A program made the position numbers and the translations under genes. This document shows, piece by piece, positions 40,810 through 55,766 of a DNA stretch of 64,000 nucleotides. This stretch comes from Leisingera methylohalidivorans DSM 14336 (GTDB lineage Bacteria; Pseudomonadota; Alphaproteobacteria; Rhodobacterales; Rhodobacteraceae), in contig NC_023135.1 in the NCBI RefSeq assembly GCF_000511355.1, positions 3,250,371 to 3,314,370 on the forward strand, given 5' to 3'. The notes beneath the pieces were generated by a model. The model ran no database searches. It was given only the letters and a program-made list of their open reading frames with translations, and was not told the DNA's origin. Within the stretch, counting starts at the first letter, position 1. Each line of letters starts with the position of its first letter.

Positions 40810-42333
40810 GTGGAAAAACACCCGTTCGCGGGCGCAGAATTTCGTTGCTTGAGTTGGGCGCAAGCGCCTTTCCTATCAGGCTGTGCGCGTCTGCTGCGGT
40901 GCAGGAAAGATCTTGGCCAATTTGCGGATGTTTTGGGCGGTTGCGGCGAGGAGGAATTCGTCATTTGCACCGCATGGGCCACGTAATCGTAGCCTTCCGA
41001 GGCCGAGGATGCGCTTGAGGTGCGCGAAGAGCATCTCGACCTTCTTTCGGAGCTTCATGGAGATGTCGTATTGCTTGGTCTTTGCGATGTCTCGGGCGAC
41101 CTGGCGGGCGTCTTCGTGTTCTTCGCGGGTGATTGATCTGGCATCTGCGTTCGGGCAGCATTTCGCCTTGGACGGGCAGGCCTGGCAGGTCAGTTTCAGG
41201 GCACGGTATTTGGTTCTGCCCTGTCCGGTCGGCCCCCGGTTCGGATCGGAATAGTTCCGCCGGAACTGCTTCAGCTCTTGGCCCTCGGGGCAGACGTATT
41301 GGTCGTTCTCGGCGTCCCACTCGAAGTCCGCCCGGCTCCAGGTGCCGTCGCTGCGGCCAGATTTGTCGAAGACGGGGATGTGCGGGTTAATCTTGCGTTC
41401 AACCAGCCAACCCAGCATCGGTCCGGTGCCATAGGCCGTGTCGGCGATCAGGCGTTCGGGATGCAGGTCGAACTTCTCTTTGACCCGCTTCAACATGGTC
41501 TTTGTTGACCCGACCTCTGCTTGCCGGATGGAGCGGGTGGGTTCCACATCCAAGATGACACCATGATCTGTGTCGATGAGATAATTGTCGGAATAGCTGA
41601 AGAATGCAGGGCCTTTACGGGCCGCTGTCCATTGGCTGGCGGGATCAGAATGCGAGGTGAACTTGGGTTGCACCTCGCTGGCGGCGCCAAAAGCGGCCTC
41701 GTCCAGGGTGTCGAGATACTCGCGCACGGCGCGGGGCGCATCGGCGGGATCGATTTGTCCCGCATCCCATTCTTCCTTCGGCGTCGAGTTCTGCTTGTTG
41801 GCATCCGCCTCGATCAGGCTGGCATCGACGGCCATGCGCTGTCCGCTCACCAGACCTTCTTGGATACACCGGGCGACAGTCGTCTCGAACAGGTGCCGCA
41901 GCAGTTCGCTGTCACGGAAGCGCCCGTGCCGGTTCTTGGAGAAAGTCGAGTGATCCGGAACCCGGTCGCTCAGATCAAGCCGACAAAACCACCGATAGGC
42001 GAGGTTCAGATGCACCTCTTCGCAAAGCCGCCGTTCCGACCGAATGCCGAAGCAATAGCCGACCAGGAGCATGCGGATCAGCAACTCGGGATCGACGGAG
42101 GGGCGGCCCGTGTGGCTGTAGAAATCCGCCAGATAGGCGCGGACGTCAGTCAAATCGACGAAGCGGTCGATGGACCGAAGAAGGTGATCCTGAGGGACAT
42201 GATCTTCCAGCGAGAACTCGTAGAACAGCGACGGCTGCGCCTCCTGCCTTGGTCCCATCATCGCAAATCCTCCCGCCCAATGCGGGAATTGAATCAGTAG
42301 TTCAGGCCGCAATCAAGGAGGAGTTTTTCAACA
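40810..42333 (-). mobile_element. IS1182-family insertion sequence
   Basis: About 1.5 kb bounded by imperfect inverted repeats: GTGGAAAAACACCC at 40810-40823, and at the other end, read inward, TGTTGAAAAACTCCTCC (plus-strand 42317-42333). Both share the G-A-A-A-A-A-C core. It contains one full-length transposase gene and may be active. I could not confirm a target-site duplication, and the exact ends are approximate. Confidence 0.7.
40876..42261 (-). CDS. IS1182-family transposase
   Basis: A 461-residue DDE transposase. I start at the ATG at 42261 (M-M-G-P-R), which has GGGAGG upstream; an in-frame ATG at 42312 would add 17 residues. It has the N-terminal DUF772-type region (R-P-S-V-D-P-E-L-L-I-R-M-L-L-V-G-Y), the first catalytic Asp in A-V-D-A-S-L-I, D-T-A-Y-G-T-G for the second, a Cys-rich zinc-like patch (C-Q-A-C-P-S-K-A-K-C-C) and a C-terminal E-M-L-F-A-H-L-K-R. 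No frameshift is visible. Confidence 0.88.
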   Translation of the reverse strand: MMGPRQEAQPSLFYEFSLEDHVPQDHLLRSIDRFVDLTDVRAYLADFYSHTGRPSVDPELLIRMLLVGYCFGIRSERRLCEEVHLNLAYRWFCRLDLSDRVPDHSTFSKNRHGRFRDSELLRHLFETTVARCIQEGLVSGQRMAVDASLIEADANKQNSTPKEEWDAGQIDPADAPRAVREYLDTLDEAAFGAASEVQPKFTSHSDPASQWTAARKGPAFFSYSDNYLIDTDHGVILDVEPTRSIRQAEVGSTKTMLKRVKEKFDLHPERLIADTAYGTGPMLGWLVERKINPHIPVFDKSGRSDGTWSRADFEWDAENDQYVCPEGQELKQFRRNYSDPNRGPTGQGRTKYRALKLTCQACPSKAKCCPNADARSITREEHEDARQVARDIAKTKQYDISMKLRKKVEMLFAHLKRILGLGRLRLRGPCGANDEFLLAATAQNIRKLAKIFPAPQQTRTA

Positions 42334-42672: not shown

Positions 42673-43448
42673 TTATCCTGCGGCCAGGGTATCCGGTATG
42701 CCGAGAGCTGTGTATCGGTTGAGCACGGCGATGGGGACCTGAATCTCTGCGACCTGCCGATCGAAGTCCAGCGCCATGAGGCTTTGGCCGAGCAGTTTGA
42801 TGCAATGCATCCAATCGCCGGGAAAATGATCCCCCGGATCATTTTCAGACCCTCGTCATATCCCGGCGCGGCGCCGGCGCTGGTATCCAGTCAACCGTCG
42901 CCATAGGACGCGGCCCAGGTACTGTGCGGCCCGTAGAGCTTCGGTCCGTGCGATGGCACCCGCGCTTGCCGGCTTCCAGGGATTGGCGTTCCCGCGGGGG
43001 GGGATGATGGCGTCAGCACCAGGGGCAGCAATTGCCCCCTGGCATTTCCGGGTGCCATATGCGCCGTCCGCAGTGACGCTGCCTATCTTCTGTTCAGGCG
43101 GGATTTGGCCAGGCAGCTCGGGTACGGCAGGCTCACGTTCAGCGTCTTCCGGCGGCGGCATCACCTGCTGCAGTCCGGCACGGCCCAATCCAGCCCAACC
43201 AGCGGCAGGAGGCTCTCGGCGAACCCCGCCGTCTGCCGAAGCGGCATGGCGAACATGGCCTTCAATGCCAGGCAGGTCTGGATCGCGGCGTCGCTGAAGC
43301 GCTGCTGCCGGCCGCGCTTGCCGCTCGGCGGCGGCGTCCAGATCATCTCCGGATCGAACCAGATTGCAAGAGATCCGCGTCGCCTTGGCGCGTCGTTGCA
43401 GGACGACCAGTTCGTGGTCTGGTAATTTGCAGGGGCCCAACGGCTCAT
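42673..43448 (-). pseudogene. IS5-family (IS427-like) transposase, decayed
   Basis: Three frames together recall one transposase. The first is N-Y-Q-T-T-N-W ... R-R-G-S-L-A-I-W-F-D-P-E-M ... L-D-W-A-V-P-D (43448 to ~43165). After an internal gap comes L-P-G-Q-I-P-P-E-Q-K-I-G-S-V-T-A-D-G-A-Y-G-T-R-K and Y-L-G-R-V-L-W-R-R (~43090 to 42856). The tail in a third frame is M-H-C-I-K-L-L-G-Q ... L-N-R-Y-T-A-L-G-I-P, stopping at 42673. Part of the catalytic core between the first two pieces is deleted and there are at least two frame breaks. Inactive. Confidence 0.8.
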
Positions 43449-43620
43449 GATCCCCAGCTATCGTGCCGTTGTTTCGATGCGCCCCAGTGACGGAGTGGCA
43501 TTTGGCTCAATTCCTGGTTTTTTTGGCGAATAAATTGGGGGCGGCTTGTGCATCACCGGGGCGGGGCGAGCGTCCGGCATCCGCGTTTGACCGTGCCCTT
43601 TTGATGGTAACAGACGGAGC

Positions 43621-44988
43621 ATGGACGTGTTTGAAGACAGCCCGCATATCTATCGGTGCATCGGCATTGGTTTCGGCCCCTCGAACATCGCGCTGGCGAT
43701 CGCGCTTGAGGAAGCAGGGGAACTGGACAATGTGCTGTTTCTGGAAAAGGCGGCGGCACCGGACTGGCAGGGTGAATTCCTGATCGATGGCAGCGATATC
43801 CAGCACAACCCGCTGCGCGATTTTGTAACACCGCGCAACCCGTCCTCCCCGTACGGATTCCTCAGCTATCTGAAGGCTAAGGGCCGCCTTTTCGAATTTC
43901 TCAATCTGGAAGCCCCCTATCCGCCGCGAACCGAGTATGCCCGCTATACTGTATGGGTGGCGCGCCAGTTCGACCGGGCGGTGCGCTACAGTTCGGCGGT
44001 GCGCAACCTGGCCTATGTCGAGGCCGGCGGGCTTCCGGCAATCCGGATCAGCCTTGAAAACGGGCAGGTGTACCTTGCCCGCAGCGTGAGCTTTGCACCG
44101 GGCCGGTCAATCAACGTCCCGGCGCCCTTTGCCGGGCATATGGGCGGGCGGATGGTGCATGCGGCGCAGTACCGGTCTGCCTTGGCCCGCTGGCAGCTCG
44201 AGGGCGCTGTCGAACGCATTGCTGTGATCGGTGCCAGCCAGAGCGCCGTGGAAATGCTGCTGGATCTTCCGGGGCATTTTCCGTCGGCGCAGATCACCGG
44301 CATCTGCCGGTCCTTCGGCTACAAGCAAAAGGACCTCAGCCCGTTCACCGAACGTGTGTATGAGCCGGAGTTTGTCGACCGGTTTTATGACGCGCCGGAG
44401 GCTGTGCAGAACAGCATGCGGCGGGAGCTGTGGCGCAGCAACTATGGCGCAGCAGACCATGACGTGATCGCCGCGCTGCAATTCCGCATGTATGAGCAGC
44501 GGGTCACCGGGCGCGAGCAGATCGTACTGCTGGACAACAAGACCACGCTGGACATCACGCCGCGGGACGGGGCAGGGGGCTTTGAGCTGACGCTGCTGGA
44601 CCGGATGGATGGCAGCGAAATCCGGGCGGGGTTTGATGCGGTCATTCTGGCGACGGGGTTCTTGAACCATAGCTGTGCGCCCGAGGGTGAGCCCTTTCAC
44701 CCGCTGCTGGCCGGTGTTGCGGAAGATGCCCGGTTCCGCGCGGATGGCGCCATTGCGCAGGCGCGGGATTACCGGCTGCTGAACAAGCCGGGCCTGACGC
44801 GGGCCCCGGTCTTCCTGAACGGCGTTTCGGAAACCAGCCATGGATTTGGCGATGCCGGCTCCTTTAGCCTGCTTTCGGTCCGCTCGGCAGAGCTGGCCCG
44901 GTCGATTGCCGGGGTGCCGGTCCGGCCGCAGAAAATCTCCCCCGGCGCAGGGCAGGACACCCCTGCGCTGACGGTTCAACCTGCATGA
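43621..44988 (+). CDS. Flavin-dependent L-lysine/ornithine-type N-hydroxylase (hydrazine pathway)
   Basis: A 455-residue SidA/IucD/PvdA-family N-monooxygenase. It has an FAD motif G-I-G-F-G-P-S-N near the N-terminus, an NADPH motif V-I-G-A-S-Q-S-A-V-E in the middle and the family A-T-G-F motif near residue 345. It should hydroxylate the terminal amine of lysine or a related diamine. The next two genes are a cupin and a MetRS-like protein, the partners that in s56-p1, triacsin and formycin-type pathways join N6-hydroxylysine to an amino acid. The 4-bp overlap with the cupin supports coupling. The siderophore alternative is less likely because no hydroxamate acyltransferase/NIS gene follows. 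Confidence 0.84.
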   Translation: MDVFEDSPHIYRCIGIGFGPSNIALAIALEEAGELDNVLFLEKAAAPDWQGEFLIDGSDIQHNPLRDFVTPRNPSSPYGFLSYLKAKGRLFEFLNLEAPYPPRTEYARYTVWVARQFDRAVRYSSAVRNLAYVEAGGLPAIRISLENGQVYLARSVSFAPGRSINVPAPFAGHMGGRMVHAAQYRSALARWQLEGAVERIAVIGASQSAVEMLLDLPGHFPSAQITGICRSFGYKQKDLSPFTERVYEPEFVDRFYDAPEAVQNSMRRELWRSNYGAADHDVIAALQFRMYEQRVTGREQIVLLDNKTTLDITPRDGAGGFELTLLDRMDGSEIRAGFDAVILATGFLNHSCAPEGEPFHPLLAGVAEDARFRADGAIAQARDYRLLNKPGLTRAPVFLNGVSETSHGFGDAGSFSLLSVRSAELARSIAGVPVRPQKISPGAGQDTPALTVQPA

Positions 44989-45431
44989 CGAGGCAGATTA
45001 TGTTTGCACTGAAAGACAGAGACACCTTTGACATCGAAACCCTGGTGCGCCGGGGTGAGACCGCGGTGACAACGCGCGAGTACAACGCCGATCTGCGGCG
45101 GCTGCTGCCCTGGCCCGGGCGCGCAAACAGCAAGCGCCCGCTGACGGAATTCGGTGCCATCCTAGTGACCATCCGGCCGCAGGAGGACGTCGATGCCCAC
45201 CGCCACGATGAGGAGGAATGCTTTATCGTCACCGTGGGCCGGGCGAGCCTGGAGATCGAGGGGCAGACAACGCAGCTGTCCGCCGGCGACGTGGTCTATA
45301 TCCCCCGCTTCTGGATGCACCAGCTGCGCAATCCCAATGCCGAACCCTTTGTCTTTGTTGATCTGTATTGGGACGACAAGGGCCGCAGTTTCGAGACATT
45401 TTCCGCCACTGAGCTTGAGGAGGCCATGTGA
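44985..45431 (+). CDS. Cupin metalloprotein, stand-alone hydrazine-synthetase cupin module
   Basis: A 148-residue single-domain cupin. The metal site is H72-R-H74-x3-E78 (motif 1) with His112 (motif 2, W-M-H-Q-L). It overlaps the N-hydroxylase gene by 4 bp, and its stop codon shares a base with the MetRS-like start. In Spb40-type hydrazine synthetases a cupin domain is fused to a MetRS-like domain and rearranges the O-aminoacyl hydroxylamine to an N-N bond. Here the same two modules are separate but adjacent. The homology to the fused cupin domain is inferred from order and motif, not tested by alignment. Confidence 0.72.
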   Translation: MTRQIMFALKDRDTFDIETLVRRGETAVTTREYNADLRRLLPWPGRANSKRPLTEFGAILVTIRPQEDVDAHRHDEEECFIVTVGRASLEIEGQTTQLSAGDVVYIPRFWMHQLRNPNAEPFVFVDLYWDDKGRSFETFSATELEEAM

Positions 45432-46951
45432 TGAAACCCGCTGCCGCCACGCCCGATTTCATCGTCACCCTGCCGCCGCCGACCCCGAATGGCGGCCTGC
45501 ATGTGGGCCATATGGCCGGACCGTTTCTGGCTGCGGACATCTTTGCCAAGGCGGCCCAAGCGGGTGGCCGGAGCGTGCATGTGCTGTCCTTCAGCGACAC
45601 CAACCAGTCCTATGTGCGGGCAACCGCGGAAAAGCAGAACCGCGATCCGGCGGAGCTGGCGTCCGGCTGGACACGCGACATTCTGAACACGCTGGAGATC
45701 TACGGCTGCCAGGTCGACAATTACTTTGAACCGGGTCCGGCATCCGACGGCTTTGTGCGGGACACGCTGCTGCGGCTTTACGAGGCGGGGGTTCTCAAGA
45801 AAAAATCATTTCCATTCATGTATTTGCCGGACGAAGATCAGTTTCTCGACGAAGCCGGCGCCAGCGGCTTGTGCCCGCGCTGCCTGGATGACTGCAAATG
45901 CGGCATCTGCGAGGCCTGCGGGTTTCCGACCCAGGCCGACACGCTTCTGAACCCGCGGTCCACCAATGATCCTTCGGCCCGGGTTGAGGTCCGTCATGCT
46001 GAGGTGCTGGTGCTGGAGCTGGAAACCTGGCGCGATGTTCTGCGCCGCTTCCATAGCTTCGGCGACGCGATCCGCCCGAAATACCGCTGGCTGGTCGATG
46101 ACGCGCTTGCCGGGCCGCTTCCGGACTTCCCGGTGACGGTGCCGGGCAGCTGGGGGATCGAAGCCGGGCACCCGGATCTGCCGGGGCAGGTTGTCAATGC
46201 CTGGCCGGAACTGGCACTGAATTTCGTGCATGGCTACAAGCAGGCAGCATCCGCTGGCGGGACGCCGAAGATTGTCAATTTCTTCGGCTATGACAATTCC
46301 TATTTCTACGCGATCGTGCATGTGGCCCTGTTGCATGCCGCCGGGATGGAGCAGTTCTTGCCCCATGCCACGGTGATCAATGAATTCTACAATCTGGAGA
46401 ACGCGAAATTCTCCACCAGCCGCGGGCATCTGATCTGGGCGCGCGACATCGCCGCGGACTATCCGGCAGATCTGGTGCGCTTTTACACGGCGCTTTCCGC
46501 GCCGGGATTCGAGCAGGGGAATTTCAATGCCCAGGACATGGAGGAGGTCATCGAGCGCAGGCTGCTGGCTCCGTACAGGCGGATCGCGGCGGCCGCGGCG
46601 GCCGCTGGCCAGGGTGCCGGGCTGCCGGAAACTGCTGCCGGTGCGGCAGCGGTGATGGAAGCGCGGGTGGCTGCAAGCTTCTCACTGGAGCGGTTCAACC
46701 TCCGGCAGGGGGCCGAGGATGTCCTCAAGGGGCTTGGCGCCATCGAGAGCTTTCAGGCGGCGCCGGGGGCGGGCCGGGACAGCGTGATGCAGATGCTGGG
46801 CGCCTGGGCGCGCGCCGCCGCGCCGCTGATGCCTTCGGTTGCCAGCGGCCTGCTGCGGGCGCTGGAGGCCGGGCGCATGCCTGGGGAGCTGGCCGGGCAG
46901 GGCGCGGCAGGCGATGCCGCCGCCAGATCGGAGGAGCCGGAACATGCCTGA
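45431..46951 (+). CDS. Methionyl-tRNA-synthetase-like amino acid ligase (hydrazine synthetase)
   Basis: A 506-residue class I synthetase paralogue. HIGH motif is H-V-G-H (residues 24-27), KMSKS is replaced by K-F-S-T-S (326-330), and a zinc knuckle spans residues 148-163 (Cys 148, 151, 155, 157, 160, 163). The C-terminal ~130 residues are Ala-rich and only loosely like the MetRS anticodon domain. Such paralogues activate an amino acid (glycine in the s56-p1 pathway) as the adenylate and transfer it to N-hydroxylysine instead of tRNA. I start at the ATG at 45431 (GAGGAGG 7 bp upstream) rather than the GTG at 45428. A second housekeeping MetRS is unlikely in this operon. Confidence 0.83.
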   Translation: MKPAAATPDFIVTLPPPTPNGGLHVGHMAGPFLAADIFAKAAQAGGRSVHVLSFSDTNQSYVRATAEKQNRDPAELASGWTRDILNTLEIYGCQVDNYFEPGPASDGFVRDTLLRLYEAGVLKKKSFPFMYLPDEDQFLDEAGASGLCPRCLDDCKCGICEACGFPTQADTLLNPRSTNDPSARVEVRHAEVLVLELETWRDVLRRFHSFGDAIRPKYRWLVDDALAGPLPDFPVTVPGSWGIEAGHPDLPGQVVNAWPELALNFVHGYKQAASAGGTPKIVNFFGYDNSYFYAIVHVALLHAAGMEQFLPHATVINEFYNLENAKFSTSRGHLIWARDIAADYPADLVRFYTALSAPGFEQGNFNAQDMEEVIERRLLAPYRRIAAAAAAAGQGAGLPETAAGAAAVMEARVAASFSLERFNLRQGAEDVLKGLGAIESFQAAPGAGRDSVMQMLGAWARAAAPLMPSVASGLLRALEAGRMPGELAGQGAAGDAAARSEEPEHA

Positions 46952-47504
46952 GCAAATGCACCTCGCCTTCATGACATTTTCCGTGCTCAAGGCGCCCTAT
47001 GGCGATCCGTCGGTGCAGGAATTCGATGACCGGACGCCGGATACCTTTGCCGAAGCGGAAAGCAGCGACGGCTTTATCGACCGTGCCAAGCCGGTGGAGG
47101 ACACCGCCTGGATGACCAACTACCAAAAGGACTGGGGGCGCTGGGGGCCGTTCGCGGTGCCGCGCTTCTATCCCGGCGGCACCTCCAGCGGCAGCTCCTA
47201 TCAGGCGCAGACGCTGTCGGTTTGGCGCGACCTGCATTCGGTCTGGACCTTTGCCTACCGCGGCGCCCGCCACCGGTCCGCGCTGAAGCAATCCGCCGAG
47301 TGGTTCGGGCAGCAGGACTGGCCGATTTTTGCAGCCTGGTGGATTCCGGCCGGGCATCAGCCCGTCTGGCCGGAGGCCTGCGCCAGGCTGGAGCATCTGC
47401 ATGACCACGGGCCGGCACCGCATGCCTTTACCTTCAAGTCGGCCTTTGACCCGCAAGGCAGGCCCTGCCGGCCGAATGCCAAACTTGAGCCGGAGCCTGC
47501 CTGA
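46944..47504 (+). CDS. DUF3291 family protein
   Basis: A 186-residue protein of the DUF3291 type. Matching features are L-S-V-W-R-D-L-H-S-V-W-T-F-A-Y-R-G-A-R-H, E-W-F, the W-W-I-P-A-G-H-x-P segment and the end A-P-H-A-F-T-F-K. The fold is thought to be a ferredoxin-like dimer related to antibiotic monooxygenases, with no known reaction. It overlaps the MetRS-like gene by 8 bp, so it is translated with the core enzymes. It could act on a hydrazine intermediate or be a binding protein. Confidence 0.72.
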   Translation: MPEQMHLAFMTFSVLKAPYGDPSVQEFDDRTPDTFAEAESSDGFIDRAKPVEDTAWMTNYQKDWGRWGPFAVPRFYPGGTSSGSSYQAQTLSVWRDLHSVWTFAYRGARHRSALKQSAEWFGQQDWPIFAAWWIPAGHQPVWPEACARLEHLHDHGPAPHAFTFKSAFDPQGRPCRPNAKLEPEPA

Positions 47505-47527
47505 GCAGGCGCGCAGGATGAAGCAGC

Positions 47528-48214
47528 ATGACCTTCGATTTTGAAACCTTCGCTGCGGTCATCGCGGTTTATGTGATGATCGTCATCAGCCCGGGGCCCA
47601 ATTTTGTTCTGATCACCCGCTACAGCCTGCGGCACCCGGTGCCGCTGGCGTTTGCGGTGACGCTCGGCCTAGCGGCGGGCGCTACAATCAATGCCTCGAT
47701 CACCATGTTCGGTGTGGGGTCGCTGATTGTGGCTTATCCGGTGTTCGGCTTCATGGTCTCTGTCGCGGGCGGCGGGTTCATGGGGTATCTGGGGCTGAGC
47801 GCAATTGTCTCGGCGCTGCGGGGGCGCACGCAGCTGCAGCCGGCAGGCCACGTGAGCACGCTGCCCGCGGAGCAGATGGAGGCGGTACCGGATGACCCGC
47901 CCGCCGGTGAAAGCCTTTTATCTGCGCTTAACAAGGGGCTGCTGGTCAATTTGCTCAACCCGAAGGGCATCGTGTTCTTCATCGGGCTTTATGCGCCGCT
48001 GATCGCCCGGACCAGCCTGGCCACCAAGGGCGCTGTGCTGGCCGCGAGTTTTCTGATCGAGATCCTTTGGTACGGTCTGGTGATCCTGATCCTGGCCCGG
48101 CCCAGGTTCCGCAGCCTGTATGAACGTGCCAGCTTTTCCATCGATTGTGTTCTTGGATTGGTGCTGCTGCTGATCGGGATGCGGATCCTGCTGCAGGCGG
48201 GCACATATCTATAG
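47528..48214 (+). CDS. LysE-family exporter
   Basis: A 228-residue RhtB/LysE-type membrane protein with about six hydrophobic segments. The N-terminal S-P-G-P-N-F-V-L-I motif and the L-L-N-P-K-G-I-V-F-F segment are family signatures. A hydrophilic loop of about 40 residues (about 105-140) is longer than usual. It lies 23 bp after DUF3291 in the same direction. Such carriers export amino acids and analogues, so it may export the product or an N-amino acid intermediate and give self-protection. Confidence 0.85.
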   Translation: MTFDFETFAAVIAVYVMIVISPGPNFVLITRYSLRHPVPLAFAVTLGLAAGATINASITMFGVGSLIVAYPVFGFMVSVAGGGFMGYLGLSAIVSALRGRTQLQPAGHVSTLPAEQMEAVPDDPPAGESLLSALNKGLLVNLLNPKGIVFFIGLYAPLIARTSLATKGAVLAASFLIEILWYGLVILILARPRFRSLYERASFSIDCVLGLVLLLIGMRILLQAGTYL

Positions 48215-48227
48215 GAGCTTGAAAGCG

Positions 48228-49295
48228 ATGAGCGAATTCTTCAGCCACAGCCCGCAGCTGATCTTGCCGACTGCGGCCCGCCGCCCGGTCCCTGCCTTGC
48301 CCGGCTGGTTCCTGCAGCGGCAGCAAAGCGCCTCTGATGCTGGCGGTTCTTGTGTGCTGCTGGGCGAGAGCGAGGGGGAGAACTTTGAGGACCTTCTGGC
48401 TGCCTGGTGCCTGAACCTGGGGCGCCGCTCCGGTGTCCGGGCGGTTGTGCTTGATGACCAGCGCGACCCCGGAATATGCGCTGTGACACTGGACAGGATG
48501 TTCGCTGACGGGTTGCGTCCGGACGCTGCCATTGGCCATTTCTCCTCTCCGGTCGCACGGCAGGCAGCACAGCGCTATGCCGCACAGGGGGTGCCGTTTT
48601 TCGCCCCGGGGTCCTCTACCGATGACCTGGCGCAGGTGCCCGGTGCTCCGGTTTTCCAGACTTTCGCCCGTGACAGCGGCCAGATCGCTGTGCTGTGCGG
48701 CGCGCTGCGGGGGGCAGGCCGGGCGGTGGTGCTGGGCCAGCCGGCCAATGCCGGTGCCGCCTTGCTCAGCGCTTTGAGGGCAGAGAAGCCATGCCCCCTG
48801 GCCGGATACAGCAGCTTCCCCCAGGTTCCCGCCGGACAGATTGCGGGCAATCCGCTGGTGCTTCTGGGATCCAAGGAATACGCCGCAGAGGCTTTGGCCG
48901 CCCTGCCGGTGCAGGCGCAGCCCTCCGCCGTCTATCTGTCCGACGACAGCCTGAATGCCGCAGCGGTCCGTCAGCAAGCGGTGCGGCTGGACTGTCCGGT
49001 CTATATTGCGGCGCTCAGCCGGCCCCGGCAGCAGACCTGCCTTCTGGGGTTTTCGGCTGACAGTATCGAACATGATGCCGCCCGTCTGCTGGGGCGGCAG
49101 CCCGGGCCCTATTTCCTGACCGCCTGGATGGCGGTCTATCTCGCGTTGCGCGGACTGAAGCAGGGGTGCCGGACACCCGGGCAGATGCTGCAAAGCCTGC
49201 AGGGGCGGAGCTGGCAAACAGTTTATGGACCGCTGTTTTTTGATGATTGCGGGCGGGCCGAAGGTTTTTCCTGGGAATTGAGGAGGGTGGCATGA
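48228..49295 (+). CDS. Periplasmic-binding-protein-fold protein without signal peptide (AmiC/LivJ-like)
   Basis: A 355-residue protein resembling Peripla_BP_6 proteins (L-L-G-E-S-E-G, the G-H-F-S-S-P-V-A region, Y-F-L-T-A-W-M-A-V-Y, and Y-G-P-L-F-F-D near the end). It starts at 48228 behind AGGAG and shows no signal peptide or membrane anchor, so it is predicted to be cytoplasmic. AmiC is a cytoplasmic example that senses amides. No ABC permease is adjacent. It may be a ligand sensor or a binding scaffold for a pathway intermediate. Its job in the cluster is unknown. Confidence 0.65.
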   Translation: MSEFFSHSPQLILPTAARRPVPALPGWFLQRQQSASDAGGSCVLLGESEGENFEDLLAAWCLNLGRRSGVRAVVLDDQRDPGICAVTLDRMFADGLRPDAAIGHFSSPVARQAAQRYAAQGVPFFAPGSSTDDLAQVPGAPVFQTFARDSGQIAVLCGALRGAGRAVVLGQPANAGAALLSALRAEKPCPLAGYSSFPQVPAGQIAGNPLVLLGSKEYAAEALAALPVQAQPSAVYLSDDSLNAAAVRQQAVRLDCPVYIAALSRPRQQTCLLGFSADSIEHDAARLLGRQPGPYFLTAWMAVYLALRGLKQGCRTPGQMLQSLQGRSWQTVYGPLFFDDCGRAEGFSWELRRVA

Positions 49296-49639
49296 GCCAT
49301 GCAACAGATGCGGTGCGGCTGCGGCCGGAGGATATGCGCAACAGCATTCCAGGCCAGGGCGGGGAGCGGTTTCATATCGGGCTGCTGCGCGGCGAATTGC
49401 AGGTCGAGCTGTATGTGCCGCAGAATGAAGACCTGCAACAGCCGCACAGCCGTGATGAATGCTATGTGGTGATCCGCGGGTCCGGCCGGTTCCAGATGGG
49501 GGAGGAGACGGTGCCGTTTGAGGCGGGCGACTTCCTGTTTGTTCCGGCGGGAATGGAGCACCGGTTTCTCGACTTTGGCAGCAGCCTGGAAACCTGGGTG
49601 ATCTTCTACGGGCCGGAAGGCGGTGAGCAGCTTGCCTGA
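49292..49639 (+). CDS. Second small cupin protein
   Basis: A 115-residue cupin. It starts at 49292 behind GAGGAGGG and overlaps the previous gene by 4 bp. Motif 1 appears as P-H52-S-R-D-E56 and motif 2 contains P-A-G-M-E-H90, with a conserved G-D-F-L-F-V-P stretch. One His of the canonical pair in motif 1 is a Ser/Arg, so metal ligation differs from the first cupin at 44985. It sits directly before the DAO-type flavoenzyme and overlaps it by 17 bp. It may help in the step that flavoenzyme performs. Confidence 0.75.
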   Translation: MSHATDAVRLRPEDMRNSIPGQGGERFHIGLLRGELQVELYVPQNEDLQQPHSRDECYVVIRGSGRFQMGEETVPFEAGDFLFVPAGMEHRFLDFGSSLETWVIFYGPEGGEQLA

Positions 49640-50720
49640 CTGCCACCCGCATATCCTGGTCGCGGGGGCGGGAATTAACGGGCTGATGGCTGCCTATTAC
49701 CTGATCCGGGCCGGGGCGCGGGTGACGGTCTGCGAGGCCGGACCGGTGCCCAATCCCGCCAGCGCTTCGTACGGGGCGCACCGGCTGATCCACCCCTGGC
49801 CGCCTGCCGGACGGCCGCAGGAGGCTGCTGCGGCGCAGCGGGCGCTGCCGCTGTGGCGCGCGCTTTTGCAGGACATCGGCTGCAGCGGTTTTGTGCAGAC
49901 GGGTGTTCTGGTGGCCTCGCCGGAGGCTTGTGACGCTGCCGCAGGAGAACACACGCTGCGGCTTCTGCCGGCACGGGCCGATGCCTTGCTGGCAGGTGCG
50001 GCGGAAATGCCCGGGGCGGTTTTGTTTCCTGAATTTGGCGTGCTGCTGGCGGAAAAGATCCTGTCGGCGCTGTGTAACGGTTTGGCCAAGCGCGGAGTGG
50101 AGTTCCTGCCAAGGGCGCCGCTGCGCGGCCTGGACACGGCAACCGGAGCGGCGGATATCGCGGGTGGTGCGCCGCAGCGCTTTGACGGGATTGTCTGCGC
50201 CCTTGGCTGGAAGTCCCGGGATCTGGAGCATATTGCCGGGGCAGGGGAGTTCCTGGCGCAGTTCAGCCCCCGCCGCAGCTATGTTGTCTACCTGCCCGAG
50301 GCAGAGCTGCCGGAGGCCAGACGGCCGCGCACGGCCTGGACCGGTTTCCTGGGGCAGGACCTGTGGGGCATGCCGGCACTGGGCAGGAATGACGCCAAGT
50401 TCGGCTGCGGTCTGCTGACCCACAGCGCTGATGAGCCGGTGCTGCCGGATAACGAGGTCCGCGCCAAGATGGCTGCCGCCTACAGCGGTGCAGATCCGGC
50501 CTACCGCGCGTTGCTGAACGGGCGGGTTGCTTCAAATATCTGGGCCATGTGCCCGTTTCCCGGGATGGTTCAGCAGGCCGGGCTTTGCACCGTGATAACC
50601 TCGGATACCGGCGGCGGGTTCAAGACGGCTCCGCTGGCCGGGCTGGCCGCGTGCGAGGCCGTCCTTGCGGCGGTTCCAGGCTGGCAGGACCTGAAAACTC
50701 AGAAGGAACAGCTGACATGA
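49623..50720 (+). CDS. DAO-type FAD-dependent oxidoreductase (hydrazino acid releasing)
   Basis: A 365-residue glycine-oxidase/D-amino-acid-oxidase-like flavoenzyme starting at GTG 49623. It has the N-terminal G-A-G-I-N-G dinucleotide motif, an H-R-L-I-H-P segment early on, and a C-terminal T-G/D-T-G-G-G-F-K-T-A-P FAD motif. In s56-p1 and related pathways a flavoenzyme of this class oxidises the N6-(carboxymethylamino)lysine intermediate and frees hydrazinoacetic acid. Its presence with the N-hydroxylase, cupin and MetRS-like genes completes the known four-activity set. Substrate not proven. Confidence 0.76.
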   Translation: MSSLPDCHPHILVAGAGINGLMAAYYLIRAGARVTVCEAGPVPNPASASYGAHRLIHPWPPAGRPQEAAAAQRALPLWRALLQDIGCSGFVQTGVLVASPEACDAAAGEHTLRLLPARADALLAGAAEMPGAVLFPEFGVLLAEKILSALCNGLAKRGVEFLPRAPLRGLDTATGAADIAGGAPQRFDGIVCALGWKSRDLEHIAGAGEFLAQFSPRRSYVVYLPEAELPEARRPRTAWTGFLGQDLWGMPALGRNDAKFGCGLLTHSADEPVLPDNEVRAKMAAAYSGADPAYRALLNGRVASNIWAMCPFPGMVQQAGLCTVITSDTGGGFKTAPLAGLAACEAVLAAVPGWQDLKTQKEQLT

Positions 50721-51187
50721 CCGCACAAGACTTTGAACTGCGCCCGCTGCGGGAAAGCGACAGGGCGGAATGGGCGCGGCTATGGACCGGTTATCTGGCG
50801 TTCTATGAGACCGCGCTTGCCGAGGAAATCTACGAGGGGACATTTGCGCGCCTGATGTCGGGGGCCGCTTGGGAGCCGTCAGCGCTGGTGCTGACATCCG
50901 CTGGAAGCGGAGACGGGCCGCAGCCGCTCGCAGGGCTGGTGCATTTCCTGTATCACGCCCATTGCTGGAAGCCGTCGCCGGTCTGCTACTTGCAAGACCT
51001 GTATGTAGACCCGGGGATACGCGGGCAGGGGCTGGGGCGGCGTCTTATCGAGGGGGTCTATGCGGCGGCGGATGAGGCCGCTGCCAGCGGCGTCTACTGG
51101 ATGACGCAGCATTTCAACAGCCAGGCCCGGCAGCTGTATGACCGTATCGGCGTGGAAACGCCCTTCATCAAGTACCAGCGCCCGTAA
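50717..51187 (+). CDS. GNAT-family N-acetyltransferase
   Basis: A 156-residue GNAT with the acetyl-CoA motif A in L-Y-V-D-P-G-I-R-G-Q-G-L-G-R-R-L-I (R/Q-x-x-G-x-G/A type) and the C-terminal A-R-Q-L-Y-D-R-I-G. It starts at 50717, overlapping the flavoenzyme stop by 4 bp, and ends the first operon before a hairpin. It could acylate the hydrazine nitrogen, protecting the cell and allowing later chemistry. GNATs do this kind of step in some hydrazinoacetate-derived pathways. It may instead act in self-resistance. Confidence 0.82.
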   Translation: MTAQDFELRPLRESDRAEWARLWTGYLAFYETALAEEIYEGTFARLMSGAAWEPSALVLTSAGSGDGPQPLAGLVHFLYHAHCWKPSPVCYLQDLYVDPGIRGQGLGRRLIEGVYAAADEAAASGVYWMTQHFNSQARQLYDRIGVETPFIKYQRP

Positions 51188-51196
51188 ACAGGTGAA

Positions 51197-51233
51197 CGGA
51201 ACCGGGAGCGCAGGGGCGCAGTCCCCGGTTCCG
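51197..51233. terminator. Hairpin between GNAT and NTF2-like genes
   Basis: A 10-bp perfect stem (51197-51206 with 51224-51233) with a 17-base loop that can pair further (GCGC/GCGC). It lies between two convergent genes and could stop transcription from both sides. No U-tract. Confidence 0.55.
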
Positions 51234-51241
51234 CGTGCAGT

Positions 51242-51637
51242 TCAGGCGTCTGCAGCGACCTCATCCAGGTGCCACAGCTTGGCGACGATACGCCATTCGG
51301 ATCCGTCATGGGCAAACATCAGATGATCAGAGAACCGATTGTTGTGGATCCGGACCCGCACTTTCACAGTGGCCGCAGCGTCTGAAAGCAGGTCAACGAA
51401 CAGGATCTCGTCCTCACGCGGGGCATTCAGGGCGGCAGGCGGAGACCGGCGCAGAATGGTGTCGTGGTAACAGCTGATCGGGTCGGCAAAGATGCGGCCG
51501 TCATCGGCATCGAACAGGCTGGCAGCGGGATGGAATACCCGCTGCAGCAGGTCTGTATCGCAAAAGTAGAGCGCGTCGAAATACCGGGTAACAGCCTGGG
51601 TAAGCCCGGCGGGGGCATGGGAGATATCCAAAGCCAT
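51242..51637 (-). CDS. NTF2-like (lumazine-binding/SnoaL-type) protein
   Basis: A 131-residue cone-fold protein resembling the Lumazine_bd_2/NTF2-like group: an N-terminal helix with Y-F-D-A-L-Y-F-C-D, a F-H-P-A-A-S-L-F segment, and a C-terminal E-W-R-I-V-A-K-L-W-H. These small domains act as cyclases, isomerases or binding proteins in many biosynthetic clusters. It is encoded just downstream of the MFS gene on the minus strand and converges with the main operon. Specific role unknown. Confidence 0.72.
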   Translation of the reverse strand: MALDISHAPAGLTQAVTRYFDALYFCDTDLLQRVFHPAASLFDADDGRIFADPISCYHDTILRRSPPAALNAPREDEILFVDLLSDAAATVKVRVRIHNNRFSDHLMFAHDGSEWRIVAKLWHLDEVAADA

Positions 51638-51654
51638 GGCGATGTCCTGTGAAG

Positions 51655-52851
51655 TTAATATTGCACGAGAGAAGAGGTGTTTGACACCGCTTGACGCTGC
51701 TTGAAGCTGGAGAAGGCAACAACTGCCGCGAACCCCAGCAGAGCCGCTGCGATCATCGCCCAGCCCACAGAGGCAATCATCAGGCCGGAACTGAAGGAGG
51801 CGATGGCCGCGCCAAGCGCGATGCCTGTATCGTTGATGCCCTGGAAAAGGGATTTTTCGCTGTCCATCAGTTCAGAGTTCAGCAGCGTTGTTGCGCCGAC
51901 GAAACCAAAATTCCATCCCAGCCCCAGCAGGACCAGGGATACGTAGAAATGCACAAGCTCAATCCCGGCAAGAGCCGTCAGCCCGGACAGGGCCAGCAGG
52001 ACCGCGCCTGTTGCGACGATGGCATTGGCGCCAAAGCGGGTGATCAATGAGCCGGTGAAGAAGCTGGGGGCGAACATCGCTACCACATGCCAGCGGATGA
52101 CATCGGCGGCCTGAACGTCGCTGAAGCCGCAGCCGACCATTGCCAGCGGCGTTGGCGTCATCAGCAGCATCATGCCGGCAAAGCTGCCGACCCCGCACAG
52201 GATCGCCCACAGCAGCCGCGGGCGGTTCCACAGCGCCGCGGTCTGGCCGCGGGACTTGTCCTTGCCGGCTTTGGGCTGCGGCGGTGCGAACTTTGCGGCT
52301 GCGATTGGCAGCATGCCGGCCAGCGCGATGGCGGACACCGCCAGATAGGCGCCTGCGAGGGGGACAGGTGCCAGGGAATCCTTGAACAGTCGGAAAACTT
52401 CGGGCGCCAGCAGTGCAGCGACCAGCCCCGAGCCGAGGGTCAGGGAAATCGCCTTGGCCTGCTGCGGCGCCGCAACCAGTTCCGCCGCGGCAAAGCGGAA
52501 CAGCCCGAAGCTGACAACCGCAGCGCCGAGCAGCGCGTGGGCAAAACACAGCAATGCAAACAACCCGTGGATCAAGCTGTAGGCTGCCAGCGCCCCGCCC
52601 AGCACGGCAAACAGCGCGGCAAGCAGGAACCCAGCCTTGCGCCCGCGCGCGCCCATCAGGATCGACATTGGCGTCGCCGTGAACAGCCCTGCCAGCAGCT
52701 GGATCGACACGGGCAGCGTGGCCAGGCCTTCGCCCGGCGACAGCTGCAGTCCTGCAAGCCCTCCCAGGATGATCAGCATCGGCATCGGGATCGTCAGAAC
52801 TGTCGCGCCAAGCAGCACGAGCAGGAAGTTTGGGCTTTTGATCAGCAGCAT
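51655..52851 (-). CDS. MFS transporter, candidate product exporter
   Basis: A 398-residue MFS protein with about 12 hydrophobic segments, starting at the ATG at 52851. G-A-R-G-R-K-A-G lies in the loop between helices 2 and 3 (the MFS motif A position), and a Lys-rich central loop (P-K-A-G-K-D-K-S-R) separates the halves. It is divergent from the GlxA/AraC regulator and co-directional with the NTF2-like gene 17 bp downstream. It probably exports the cluster product. The in-frame upstream codons to 53028 look non-coding and lack a ribosome site. Confidence 0.82.
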   Translation of the reverse strand: MLLIKSPNFLLVLLGATVLTIPMPMLIILGGLAGLQLSPGEGLATLPVSIQLLAGLFTATPMSILMGARGRKAGFLLAALFAVLGGALAAYSLIHGLFALLCFAHALLGAAVVSFGLFRFAAAELVAAPQQAKAISLTLGSGLVAALLAPEVFRLFKDSLAPVPLAGAYLAVSAIALAGMLPIAAAKFAPPQPKAGKDKSRGQTAALWNRPRLLWAILCGVGSFAGMMLLMTPTPLAMVGCGFSDVQAADVIRWHVVAMFAPSFFTGSLITRFGANAIVATGAVLLALSGLTALAGIELVHFYVSLVLLGLGWNFGFVGATTLLNSELMDSEKSLFQGINDTGIALGAAIASFSSGLMIASVGWAMIAAALLGFAAVVAFSSFKQRQAVSNTSSLVQY

Positions 52852-53100
52852 GGGTCTGTCCACAGAATTACTTGCAGAGGGGATACAGCTTGCGGCACCT
52901 GATTTTATGTCAACGGCACGGTGATTTAAGCCAGTCTGCCGACCGCCGGCCCCGGCGGAATCCTGCAACCCCTGTGAAGTTTGAAAAAATTTCTCTACTG
53001 ACGGTAAAGTTGTGCTATCGCGCCGCAAAAGTAAGATTACGCCGCGTCACAATTTGCTATGCGGTACCAAAGGCAAGTCGAAAAAGGGGGGGGCAGGCTG

Positions 53101-54066
53101 ATGGCGGCTCAGGAACGCAGGAAGATTAAAGTGGTCATGTTTCCCGATTCCCAGGTGCTGGACATTTCCGGCCCGGTGACGGTTTTCGAGGGCGCAAACA
53201 AGCTTTTGCCGCCGGCGCTGGGGTATGACGTCTCGCTGATCTCGCCGGGCGGCGGGCCGGTTGCGACCAATGGCTGTATCGCAATACAGGCGCATGGCAG
53301 CGTTGAGAGCGAGGATCTGGAAGGGGTAGACACCCTTTTGATCCCGGGCGGCAGCAAGGGAACGCCGCAGGCGATGCGGGACCCGGCATTGCGGCGGCTG
53401 GTTCGGCGCGCCAACGACAAGCAAATCCGCCTCATGTCCATATGCACCGGTGCCTTTGTCCTGGCTGAGGCCGGCATTCTGGACAACCGCCAATGCACGA
53501 CGCATTGGGCCGAAATCGGCAACTTCCGCCGCCTGTTCCCCGGCGTAACCGTCCTGACCGATGTGATTTACCACACCGAGGACAACATTTGGACGTCGGC
53601 CGGAGTGGCCACCGGGATTGATATGGCCCTGGCCATTGTTGCAGAGGATTTCGGTCAGGACATTTCGCAGCAGGTGGCCCGGAACCTTGTTCTCTACATG
53701 GCGCGGCCAGGTCATCTGGAGCAGATCTCAGAGTTCCTGCGCAATGTGCCCACACAGGAGGAAAAGTTCAACGAGCTGGTCATGTACATCAGGACCAATC
53801 CTGCCGCCAATCATGACGTGAACCGTATGGCGGAGCGCTGCAATATGAGCACCCGAAGCTTTACCCGGAAGTTCAAGACTGCCCTGGGCAAGACCCCGGC
53901 GGCAATGGTTCGGGAAATACGGGCCGCCCGTGCAGAGTTTTACATGAAGAACACGGATTACAATCAGAAGCGGATTGCAGCGCTGGCGGGCTTTTCCTCG
54001 GTCGATGTCATGCGCCATTGCATGAAGGCCGTGCAGAAAGACGGGGCTGCAGCTGAATCCGGCTGA
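53101..54066 (+). CDS. GlxA-family AraC transcriptional regulator
   Basis: A 321-residue regulator. The N-terminal DJ-1/PfpI-like domain (F-P-D-S-Q-V-L-D-I-S-G-P, P-G-G-S-K-G-T, S-I-C-T-G-A-F-V-L-A-E-A-G nucleophile-elbow Cys, T-T-H-W) is followed by a C-terminal AraC HTH (R-M-A-E-R-C-N-M-S-T-R-S-F-T-R-K-F, then I-A-A-L-A-G-F-S-S-V). I prefer the ATG at 53101, which has a G-rich ribosome site, over the one at 53059. It sits between the two halves of the biosynthetic cluster and is divergent from the exporter, so it is the likely pathway regulator. Confidence 0.84.
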   Translation: MAAQERRKIKVVMFPDSQVLDISGPVTVFEGANKLLPPALGYDVSLISPGGGPVATNGCIAIQAHGSVESEDLEGVDTLLIPGGSKGTPQAMRDPALRRLVRRANDKQIRLMSICTGAFVLAEAGILDNRQCTTHWAEIGNFRRLFPGVTVLTDVIYHTEDNIWTSAGVATGIDMALAIVAEDFGQDISQQVARNLVLYMARPGHLEQISEFLRNVPTQEEKFNELVMYIRTNPAANHDVNRMAERCNMSTRSFTRKFKTALGKTPAAMVREIRAARAEFYMKNTDYNQKRIAALAGFSSVDVMRHCMKAVQKDGAAAESG

Positions 54067-54402
54067 AAAGTGCGGCAGCTGTCAGGCTGCCGCCAGTTAA
54101 TCAGGAGTTGGCCTGCAAATGATGGCGGGCCAAAGGGATCATTCCCAAAGCTATCGCGTCCGGAAGGCAATGGCGGCCAAAACTGCTGTCAGAACGGCCA
54201 ATGCAAGAGACGTGCTGCTGGTTCCGGCCGGTATATTGCCTTTCCTGGCCGCGGAAGGTGCTGATCCTTTAGTTGCTTGATTGGTTAATGAATCTGCTAA
54301 AAGGTGTCTTAAACCGTCGTGAATTTGGCCGAAATCCCTTAAAACTCCTGCCTAGGAAAGCGAAGGGTTCACCACGTTTTTGCGAATTGGAGTGCAGGGG
54401 AA
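54067..54402. other. Regulatory gap before the second biosynthetic operon
   Basis: A hairpin GCGGCAGC / GCTGCCGC (54072-54079 with 54086-54093) right after the regulator stop is a probable terminator. The rest has no convincing gene. The AT-richer part at 54270-54370, with two CTTAAA elements (54310-54345), probably holds the promoter for the aminotransferase operon. Confidence 0.4.
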
Positions 54403-55692
54403 ATGATTGCAAACAGGACAATGGAATCAAATGTGCGCAGCTATAACCGGGCGTTCGGGAGTACATTTGACCGGGCGGCCGGCGCTGAGATGTTCGACGA
54501 AACCGGCGGTCGGCATCTGGATTTTCTCGCAGGCTGCGGGTCGCTGAATTACGGGCACAATCACCCGGTGCTCAAGGCCGCGCTGATGGATTATGTGGCC
54601 CGTGATGGATTGTGCATGTCGCTTGATCTGAACTCCACCGCGCGGTCGGCATTCCTGGAGCGGTTTGAACGGATTGTCCTGGCGCCGCGCGGGTTGGACT
54701 ATCTGGTGCAGTTTCCTGGCCCGACCGGGGCAAACTGTGTGGAGGCGGCAATCAAGCTGGCCCGCAAGGCGACCGGGCGCAGCAATGTCATCGGCTTCAC
54801 CAACGGGTTCCATGGCTGTTCGCTGGGCGCGCTGTCGCTGACCGGGAGCAGCCATCACCGGGCCGGCTCGGCAGCCTTGCTGCAGCAGGTAAGTCGGATG
54901 CCTTATGAAGGCTACCTTGGGAGCGGTCTCGATACCGCAGATTATATTGACCGGCTGCTGGATGACCCGAGCAGCGGCATTGATGCGCCTGCGGCCTTTG
55001 TGGTGGAGCTTGTGCAGGGCGAGGGCGGTTTGCAAGCCGCGTCTGCAGGCTGGGTCGGCCGCCTGCAGGAGATTGCACGCAAGCACGGCGCGCTGCTGAT
55101 TGTCGATGACATCCAGGCAGGATGCGGCAGGACCGGCACGTTCTTCTCGTTCGAGCCGCTTGGCATCATCCCGGACATGATTTGCCTGGCCAAGGCGGTA
55201 TCCGGCTATGGCCTGCCGATGTCGCTGCTGCTTCTGAAGCCGGAGCTGGATTGCTGGAAGCCGGGCGAGCATAACGGCACGTTCCGTGGCAACAGCCACG
55301 CCTTTGTCACCGCCGCGGCTGCGCTGGAGCATTTCTGGGGCGATCCTGAGTTTGCGCAAACCCTCGCAGACCGCTGCGCAGCAATGCAGCGCCACTGCGG
55401 ACAGCTTGCAGACAACTTTGGCCTGCGCGTCAAAGGGCGCGGAATGATGATGGGCCTCGAATTCACCGACTACGGCATGGCGGCGGCAGTGCAGGCGGAC
55501 TGTGTCCGCCGCGGTCTGATTATCGAACGCTGCGGACCGCATGACGAAGTGCTGAAATTCCTGCCGCCGCTCACTCTTGCGCCGGAACAGCTGGACGAAG
55601 GATTTGCCATTGTCCGGCAGGCGCTGACCGCTGTGCTGGGTGACAGGGAATGCACTGCCCAGCCCCGTGTGCCGGAATTTCAACCGGCATAA
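54403..55692 (+). CDS. Class III aminotransferase, diaminobutyrate-2-oxoglutarate type (EctB-like)
   Basis: A 429-residue fold-type I PLP enzyme of the EctB/DABA-aminotransferase group. Visible motifs are G-P-T-G-A-N-C-V-E-A-A-I-K (cofactor phosphate), D-D-I-Q-A-G-C-G-R-T-G-T-F-F (PLP-contacting Asp), the lysine in L-A-K-A-V-S-G-Y-G-L-P, and G-E-H-N-G-T-F-R-G-N. EctB makes L-2,4-diaminobutyrate from aspartate semialdehyde. No ectA or ectC is nearby, so ectoine is not the purpose. The next gene is an amine N-hydroxylase that could use the product. The start at 54403 has AGGGG close by; an ATG at 54421 is possible. Confidence 0.84.
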   Translation: MIANRTMESNVRSYNRAFGSTFDRAAGAEMFDETGGRHLDFLAGCGSLNYGHNHPVLKAALMDYVARDGLCMSLDLNSTARSAFLERFERIVLAPRGLDYLVQFPGPTGANCVEAAIKLARKATGRSNVIGFTNGFHGCSLGALSLTGSSHHRAGSAALLQQVSRMPYEGYLGSGLDTADYIDRLLDDPSSGIDAPAAFVVELVQGEGGLQAASAGWVGRLQEIARKHGALLIVDDIQAGCGRTGTFFSFEPLGIIPDMICLAKAVSGYGLPMSLLLLKPELDCWKPGEHNGTFRGNSHAFVTAAAALEHFWGDPEFAQTLADRCAAMQRHCGQLADNFGLRVKGRGMMMGLEFTDYGMAAAVQADCVRRGLIIERCGPHDEVLKFLPPLTLAPEQLDEGFAIVRQALTAVLGDRECTAQPRVPEFQPA

Positions 55693-55766
55693 CCACTGAA
55701 TTTTCAATTTTCATTCAATGCAAAGCAGGCCGTGCCTGCTTTGCCCAGACAGAGATGAGTCCTGAA

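Follow-up and report, generated by a model that had tools for sequence, protein, structure and literature searches.

A cassette of 16 genes in Leisingera methylohalidivorans DSM 14336 is likely responsible for a small molecule with a hydrazine group, made by a split cupin/methionyl-tRNA synthetase (MetRS)-type synthetase that is predicted to be coupled to a second N-hydroxylation module. The cassette lies in a stretch of 64,000 nucleotides (contig NC_023135.1, positions 3,250,371 to 3,314,370; hereafter the window), and its genes are called A to P in the order of their positions in the window. As predicted from its genes, it encodes a variant form of the hydrazine pathway known from cupin/MetRS systems, to which a module has been added. 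Enzymatic N–N bond formation is a small, growing field. The compactness of the cassette and the division of its functions among separate genes make it practical to test every step gene by gene. Published work is cited here from excerpts of the papers.

Gene content of the cassette

A preliminary description of this DNA had proposed a hydrazine-forming gene set at 43621–50720, and eight open reading frames, A to H, are found there on the plus strand in the order and with the families that it gave. All eight match Pfam families over the cut-off. A (NMO1; 43621–44988; Lys_Orn_oxgnase, PF13434, 1.9e-76) belongs to the FAD/NADPH N-hydroxylating monooxygenase (NMO) family. B (cupin1; 44985–45431; Cupin_2, PF07883, 9e-16) is likely the N–N-forming zinc cupin, which would rearrange an ester to a hydrazine. 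C (45428–46951; tRNA-synt_1g, PF09334, 2.5e-47) is a MetRS-like, putatively amino-acid-activating enzyme without an anticodon domain. They are followed by D, a DUF3291 protein (46944–47504; PF11695, 2.9e-35), E, a LysE-family amino-acid exporter (47528–48214; PF01810, 4.1e-24), F, a protein with a periplasmic-binding-protein fold that starts at TTG 48219 or ATG 48228 (48219–49295; Peripla_BP_6, PF13458, 2.2e-10), G, a second small cupin (cupin2; 49292–49639; Cupin_2, PF07883, 1.6e-11), and H, a DAO/glycine-oxidase-type FAD enzyme with the dinucleotide motif GAGING (49623–50720; PF01266, 1.5e-28). As had been noted, the junctions are mostly overlaps: the overlap is 4 nt for A/B, B/C and F/G, 8 nt for C/D and 17 nt for G/H, and short gaps separate D from E and E from F.

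The extent given in the preliminary description holds for these eight genes but falls short of the unit, which reaches from about 43.5 to 59.42 kb. A ninth gene, I, encoding a GNAT acyltransferase (50717–51187, plus strand; PF00583, 6e-11), overlaps H by 4 nt. J, a SnoaL/lumazine-binding-like small protein (51242–51637; PF12893, 1.2e-23), and K, an MFS transporter (51655–53028; PF07690, 1.5e-14), follow on the minus strand, and both are kept in the related strains Leisingera sp. JC1 and Leisingera SS27. The second half then runs on the plus strand. It consists of L, a GlxA/FtrA-type AraC regulator with a DJ-1 domain (53059–54066; PF01965, PF12833), M, an EctB-type L-2,4-diaminobutyrate aminotransferase (54403–55692; above the TIGR02407 and NF006733 cut-offs), N, a second NMO (NMO2; 55755–57104, starting at ATG 55755 or 55767; PF13434, 3.8e-79), O, a pyridoxal phosphate (PLP) enzyme of the methionine gamma-lyase/O-acylhomoserine sulfhydrylase family (57123–58430; PF01053, 1.3e-80), and P, a KAS III-like acyltransferase assigned to the DpsC/CerJ/ChlB3 type from its closest solved structures (58427–59422). 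All 16 proteins were placed in families by Pfam and NCBIfam.

Predicted split hydrazine synthetase

C keeps the aminoacyl-adenylation motifs HVGH (residues 25–28) and KFSTS, and Anticodon_3 was not found in it by a Pfam profile search even at E 0.1. The housekeeping MetRS of the same genome (C1:831312-832703), which is 24% identical to C, carries Anticodon_3 at 1.1e-77. The preliminary description would have been refuted by a MetRS-like protein that clusters with tRNA-charging MetRS and keeps anticodon-binding residues, and this result was not obtained; C is assigned as a MetRS paralogue. Compared with the genome's own MetRS, the Tyr preceding the HIGH motif is replaced by Thr in 9 of 9 aligned rows of the MetRS-like family, and the His in the GKDNVPFHT stretch by Tyr or Trp in 8 of 9, V. 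halioticoli retaining His. We take these two positions to line the methionine pocket. A protein search gave 183 relatives of C at 1e-20 (120 listed); among those listed, the Colwellia protein P0004 is 70% identical. The Colwellia pair Col1–Col2 is listed among the identified hydrazine synthetases in Table 2 of PMC11705231.

Cupin1 can be compared with a characterized enzyme. Its residues 72–129 align with residues 66–123 of PDB 5UQP, the cupin RHS1, in a phmmer search. The zinc ligands of RHS1 are Asp63, His65, Glu69 and His103, of which Glu69 is catalytic (PMC8664883). H72, H74, E78 and H112 of cupin1 stand at the ligand positions if a 3-residue offset of the PDB chain is assumed, and in this partly assumed register cupin1 retains both zinc-binding His residues and the catalytic Glu. 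Furthermore, cupin1 matches the N-terminal cupin of P0102, a cupin-MetRS fusion from Pantoea (31% over 99 residues), and in the fusion P0216 an NMO is joined to a cupin1-type domain. In another fusion, P0009, a MetRS-like protein with 62% identity to C bears a C-terminal cupin that is closer to cupin2 (40% over 68 residues) than to cupin1 (34% over 41). Cupin2 has Q50, H52, E56 and H90, and no match to 5UQP was obtained at 1e-3; its AlphaFold2 model (pLDDT 49.4, shallow alignment) was not used. At two poorly annotated or unannotated Burkholderia places with a relative of cupin2, tblastn gave matches only to the two cupins. Because of the RHS1 alignment and the fusion links, cupin1 is a better candidate than cupin2 for N–N formation.

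Hydrazine synthetases in which the cupin and the MetRS part are separate proteins are already established (PMC8664883). The A-B-C core is thus predicted to be a split member of the cupin/MetRS hydrazine-synthetase family. Together, the placements of the MetRS-like protein, cupin1 and NMO1 support the earlier proposal of an N–N-forming set in a marine alphaproteobacterium.

N-hydroxylating monooxygenases

Four proteins of the genome match PF13434 above the cut-off, the cassette pair at 1e-76 or better and the other two weakly. NMO1 carries the motifs GFGPSN at 17, GASQSA at 204 and ATGF at 344. In a tree of 39 proteins, it falls in a clade of 27 members (support 99/98), which takes in 17 of the 20 rows labelled as MetRS-linked and 10 unlabelled rows and includes the NMOs of Pseudomonas orientalis and Litchfieldella. 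The MetRS-linked NMOs of Klebsiella, Deinococcus and Rhizobium rhizogenes are outside this clade, as are the siderophore NMOs IucD and AcbB and the NMOs of the Azotobacter and Pseudosulfitobacter nonribosomal peptide synthetase (NRPS) clusters. Long branches meet in this tree, so the placements of IucD, AcbB and the R. rhizogenes NMO are unsafe. These three and eight rows with P numbers were left out of a second tree of 30 proteins, to which G111, a genome of the same family, was added, and the NMO1 clade has a support of 98/99 there. The siderophore NMOs compared were therefore four in the first tree, two of them labelled from their NRPS context, and two in the second. NMO2 is sister to an EctB-linked NMO of Agrobacterium vitis with 100/100 in both trees. 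The two placements used here, the NMO1 clade and this pairing, hold in the 30-protein tree. The remaining NMOs linked to EctB (from Vibrio halioticoli, Xenorhabdus, Mycetohabitans and G111) branch near NMO2, the wider EctB group having a support of 49/60 in the 39-protein tree. NMO1, whose gene adjoins the synthetase genes, is placed elsewhere in both trees.

Relatives of NMO1 are named both ornithine and lysine hydroxylase. Por9 has been linked to N5-hydroxyornithine (review PMC11705231), and the P. orientalis NMO in the NMO1 clade is matched to it by species name only. With longest contigs of exactly equal size as a proxy for a shared contig, 24 of the 50 MetRS-like matches compared apparently share a contig with one of the 120 listed NMO1 matches (854 passed). 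Beside NMO1 there is a subclade (93/83) made up of P0216 (586 aa), P0137, P0151, P0161, P0166, P0170, P0177 and P0213. By the same size proxy, none of these pairs with the MetRS-like matches compared.

Another explanation of the two NMOs is that they feed a hydroxamate siderophore assembled elsewhere in the genome. Both are of the SidA/IucD/PvdA family, and the window holds two IucA/IucC genes at about 17.8–21.3 kb, the only two found in the genome. The preliminary description had named, as a result that would refute it, an N-hydroxylase grouping with siderophore enzymes that have an adjacent hydroxamate synthetase. However, the IucA/IucC genes are about 22 kb from NMO1, no NMO was found in their stretch, and neither NMO1 nor NMO2 groups with the siderophore NMOs compared. 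We know of no siderophore role for MetRS or cupin proteins. The siderophore explanation was set aside as highly improbable.

Putative second N-hydroxylation module

The order of L to P is also found on plasmid pRvVAR031a of A. vitis (NZ_AP023270.1, 436878–443058), as regulator, EctB, NMO, PLP enzyme and KAS III. L to P are 35, 57, 55, 51 and 46% identical to their A. vitis counterparts. The regulator beside the A. vitis ectB sits on the opposite strand, unlike L, and the downstream genes are different. After the module, MFS, iron-containing redox enzyme, LysE, carbamoyltransferase and SGNH hydrolase genes are annotated there (L013:17429-22981). C, B and H have no tblastn match in 30.9 kb of the A. 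vitis locus, and no MetRS-like gene lies within 15 kb.

M is the second EctB copy of the genome. The other copy (C1:3217249-3218484), 52% identical to M, adjoins an ectoine synthase gene, and M was rejected as the ectoine gene of the genome for this reason. The closest solved structure to O is methionine gamma-lyase, and O has the lysine motif SVSKS at 216. Two reactions would suit O: an N4-substituted diaminobutyrate may undergo gamma-elimination, or a nitrogen nucleophile may enter by gamma-replacement, a reaction that occurs in loline biosynthesis. The best solved relatives of P are DpsC, which we take to be the daunorubicin-doxorubicin polyketide synthase entry in the PDB, CerJ and ChlB3, and P has NQGC at 110 and GHTGTADQ at 286. 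DpsC, CerJ and ChlB3 are acyltransferases, not chain-extending KAS III enzymes. In azaserine biosynthesis, the 3-oxoacyl-ACP synthase AzsD transfers a hydrazono-acyl group (PMC10445470).

On plasmid pBRH01 of Mycetohabitans rhizoxinica (L022:9481-13999), a Rieske-type dioxygenase, a diaminobutyrate aminotransferase, an N-hydroxylase and an FMN-binding (PaiB-like) regulator are annotated in a row. This row is a candidate for making a five-membered cyclic hydrazine amino acid, because PaiB proteins have been linked to piperazate synthase activity (review PMC11705231).

Limits and distribution of the cassette

The whole cassette aligns by blastn to Leisingera sp. JC1 as a single block (43485–59423) and to Leisingera SS27 as a single block (43515–59422), with 88% nucleotide identity in each case. 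The block ends in the two strains differ by at most 30 nt. The gene order recurs in both, and the proteins are 82–96% identical. The array is therefore not due to chance. No other match to the window adjoins the block in JC1 or SS27, and the JC1 stretch compared (10.7 kb to the left and 9.4 kb to the right of the block) holds none. In SS27, there is an extra match of 1.9 kb, to 12437–14320 of the window, which lies inverted 8.4 kb to the left of the block. A plasmid of Leisingera S132 carries a decayed copy, consisting of NMO1, cupin1, 274 residues of the MetRS-like protein with a break in the frame, and pieces of the PLP-gene end and KAS III, so that both cassette ends persist. On this plasmid, PAAR and phage-baseplate-type genes stand where the middle of the cassette was (L012:17573-21004).

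In a search of relatives, the MetRS-like protein C was found at 1e-20 in 5 of 61 genomes, all five belonging to the genus (21 genomes). They are the genome itself, the two with intact copies, one with the S132-type remnant and one with a distant relative (30%). Wider searches, with the own genome included, gave C in 2 of 394 genomes of the family (E 1e-60) and 1 of 398 of the phylum (E 1e-80), and P in 1 of 385 of the class (E 1e-50). The block limits in JC1 and SS27, the S132 remnant and the 5/61 count show that a single inherited unit extends from A to P, and that it is rare and patchy. A different, distant set is present in G008 of the same genus (C104; L046:2193-7247), with a MetRS-like gene (31%), an NMO, a cupin and a binding protein found by tblastn.

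A DDE-type transposase fragment (42856–43440; PF01609) is located in the left flank, and further transposase-like frames were recognized by reading alone at 40876–42312 on the left and 59419–60284 on the right. The cassette is a discrete, compact and probably mobile unit of 16 genes.

JC1 was isolated from squid egg jelly coats, and its authors reported that indigoidine is not the sole means of vibrio inhibition (PMC5014874). The word hydrazine is absent from the main text of this genome paper as far as its excerpts go. The cassette is a candidate for the remaining vibrio inhibition of JC1. A killing cluster of Ruegeria pomeroyi was set aside as unrelated, from excerpts of the literature.

Other genes of the first half

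The family of F also adjoins MetRS-like genes in Xenorhabdus, Deinococcus and G008. In its first 45 residues, the top 15-residue mean hydropathy is 0.63, compared with 1.93 for one control taken as secreted; the corresponding binding proteins have 0.64 (Xenorhabdus), 1.25 (Deinococcus) and 1.29 (V. halioticoli). Because this N-terminal hydropathy is low relative to the control, F, which has no evident signal peptide, is likely cytoplasmic. H is 29% identical to the DAO of the Deinococcus cluster (1e-17) and 33% to that of G111, and likely cleaves a C–N bond. D has a 49% identical gene in the hydrazine-type cluster of G111 and is possibly an oxidase or monooxygenase acting on the hydrazine; its AlphaFold2 model (pLDDT 37.5, shallow alignment) was unusable and was not used. 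By annotation only, no MetRS-like gene is listed at DUF3291 places in two alphaproteobacterial plasmids. GNAT genes also occur in the clusters of V. halioticoli, Xenorhabdus and G111. The binding proteins, GNATs and transporters that accompany these MetRS paralogues have already been noted (PMC2922099).

Proposed pathway

From the gene content, order, conservation, motifs, families and limits observed, we infer the reactions, the substrates, the link between the modules and the product as follows. NMO1 would act on a basic amino acid (ornithine, lysine or diaminobutyrate) and hydroxylate its side-chain nitrogen. C would activate a second amino acid as the adenylate and join it to the N-OH as an ester. 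Cupin1 would then rearrange the ester into an N–N bond. H would cut one C–N bond to free a monosubstituted hydrazine, which GNAT I possibly acylates. In the second module, M would supply diaminobutyrate, on which NMO2 likely acts to give N4-hydroxy-diaminobutyrate. The molecule's second part would come from O, by gamma-elimination or gamma-replacement, and from P. Export of the product would fall to the LysE and MFS proteins, and F, presumably in the cytoplasm, would hold or sense it.

We also propose, tentatively, a more far-reaching version. In this version, the N–N product would come from two enzymatic hydroxylamines, the N4-hydroxy-diaminobutyrate unit might be converted by unreported PLP/KAS III chemistry, and cupin2 might serve as an extra N–N catalyst; the second module would be an independent building block that works alone in Agrobacterium.

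Related clusters and alternative pathways

Several related clusters were compared with the cassette. The gene order is NMO, cupin, MetRS-like, DAO, ATP-grasp and binding protein in Deinococcus ficus, and NMO, cupin and MetRS-like in Klebsiella variicola, where it is located at the end of the record. The Xenorhabdus set begins with MetRS-like, GNAT, AMP ligase, a carrier-cupin protein, DAO and binding protein, and continues with hydrolase, rhodanese, one NMO and EctB. In V. halioticoli, whose record carries no annotation, tblastn found MetRS-like, GNAT, cupin, NMO and EctB genes, and DAO, binding protein, ligase, hydrolase and rhodanese genes in the Xenorhabdus order were recognized by reading open reading frames. 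G111 has DAO, cupin, MetRS-like, NMO, EctB, DUF3291 and GNAT genes by tblastn, and PhzF, AMP ligase and hydrolase genes identified by reading only. EctB, a single NMO and a MetRS-like gene thus occur together in V. halioticoli, Xenorhabdus and G111. Since one NMO stands with EctB there, this suggests that diaminobutyrate may be the hydroxylated amino acid in these clusters, as has been reported for actinopyridazinone. The Leisingera cassette differs in having NMO1 plus the EctB/NMO2 pair, whereas the more distant related sets examined have one NMO.

The split systems RHS1 of Rhodococcus jostii and Col1–Col2 resemble the cassette in that a cupin gene lies directly 5' of the MetRS-like gene, an N-hydroxylase adjoins, and the Glu and His residues are kept; the cassette adds a second cupin gene. 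The s56-p1, triacsin and azaserine systems (Spb38-40, Tri26-28, AzsL-N), compared by description, have in common with it the N-hydroxylase, cupin/MetRS and DAO-type flavoenzyme. Triacsin and azaserine also use a succinylating N-acyltransferase, and azaserine a 3-oxoacyl-ACP-synthase-like acyl transferase, which parallel the GNAT and KAS III families here. In contrast to these systems, the synthetase of the cassette is split, and there are two NMOs, EctB and a gamma-lyase-like PLP enzyme. Actinopyridazinone (Apy9-11), also compared by description, is alike in DAO-type cleavage and in diaminobutyrate as the likely hydroxylated amino acid, and differs from the cassette with its two NMOs. In a Nature paper of 2026, 129 clusters from Actinobacteria and Proteobacteria are reported to carry hydrazone-forming homologues (PMC13061610). 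No description of the 16-gene cassette was found in the literature searched, whose coverage mostly excludes subscription journals, nor was a pairing of hydrazine machinery with a diaminobutyrate/N-hydroxylase/PLP/KAS III module found in the excerpts consulted.

The likeness to s56-p1, triacsin and azaserine raises the alternative that the cassette follows the classical route, in which lysine and glycine give hydrazinoacetic acid, the route that the preliminary description drew on. The cassette has members of the NMO, cupin, MetRS-like, DAO and GNAT families, and so does the azaserine cluster. However, the P. orientalis NMO in the NMO1 clade and the EctB of the cassette point to ornithine or diaminobutyrate rather than lysine, and the 16 genes include no AMP ligase or carrier protein, a feature of triacsin and azaserine (s56-p1 was not compared). 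We therefore regard this route as unlikely.

The proposal of a hydrazine pathway coupled to the second module has evidence against it as well. Triacsin and azaserine use both an AMP ligase and a carrier protein after the hydrazine step, and the lack of these two among the 16 genes counts here too. Cupin1 carries His where RHS1 has Asp63. In pairwise comparison with Xenorhabdus, F matches the binding protein weakly (E 0.008) and H does not clearly match the DAO (E 0.017), although H and this DAO share PF01266. A tblastn search of the V. halioticoli locus at 1e-3 gave no match for D, F or H. The NMOs of Klebsiella and Deinococcus group with the siderophore-type NMOs of Azotobacter and Pseudosulfitobacter and not with NMO1 (100/100, 30-protein tree). 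Because these two adjoin MetRS-like genes and yet fall outside the NMO1 clade, NMO clade and gene context do not, as far as the sequences tell, simply track each other, and the trees do not resolve the NMO substrates.

Furthermore, the modules A-I and L-P may make two separate compounds, since the A. vitis module stands without a MetRS-like gene and pairings of KAS III with MetRS-like genes are few. By the contig-size proxy, judged by eye, only 3 of 51 KAS III matches pair with any of the 120 listed MetRS-like matches, the other 48 having no such pairing, and no MetRS-like gene is listed in the KAS III neighbourhoods of three Streptomyces plasmids (annotation only). A-I would then be a hydrazine pathway and L-P a pathway to another N-oxidised diaminobutyrate metabolite, the cassette and perhaps export being common to both. 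This is doubtful, because JC1 and SS27 carry the two halves as one block with almost the same ends, and S132 still has both cassette ends. In addition, the three size-matched pairs (contigs of 36732, from a Colwellia, 147689 and 11289) include two that also have an NMO1 match. We thus favor the coupled hydrazine pathway over two independent ones.

Neighboring siderophore genes

On the minus strand of the window, at 14426–23644, there is a siderophore cluster with the two IucA/IucC genes (PF04183), presumably of the petrobactin type. TonB receptor, AMP ligase, DUF6005-like and AsbF-like genes were recognized in it by reading open reading frames. The same siderophore gene types are also annotated on the S132 plasmid that carries the decayed cassette.

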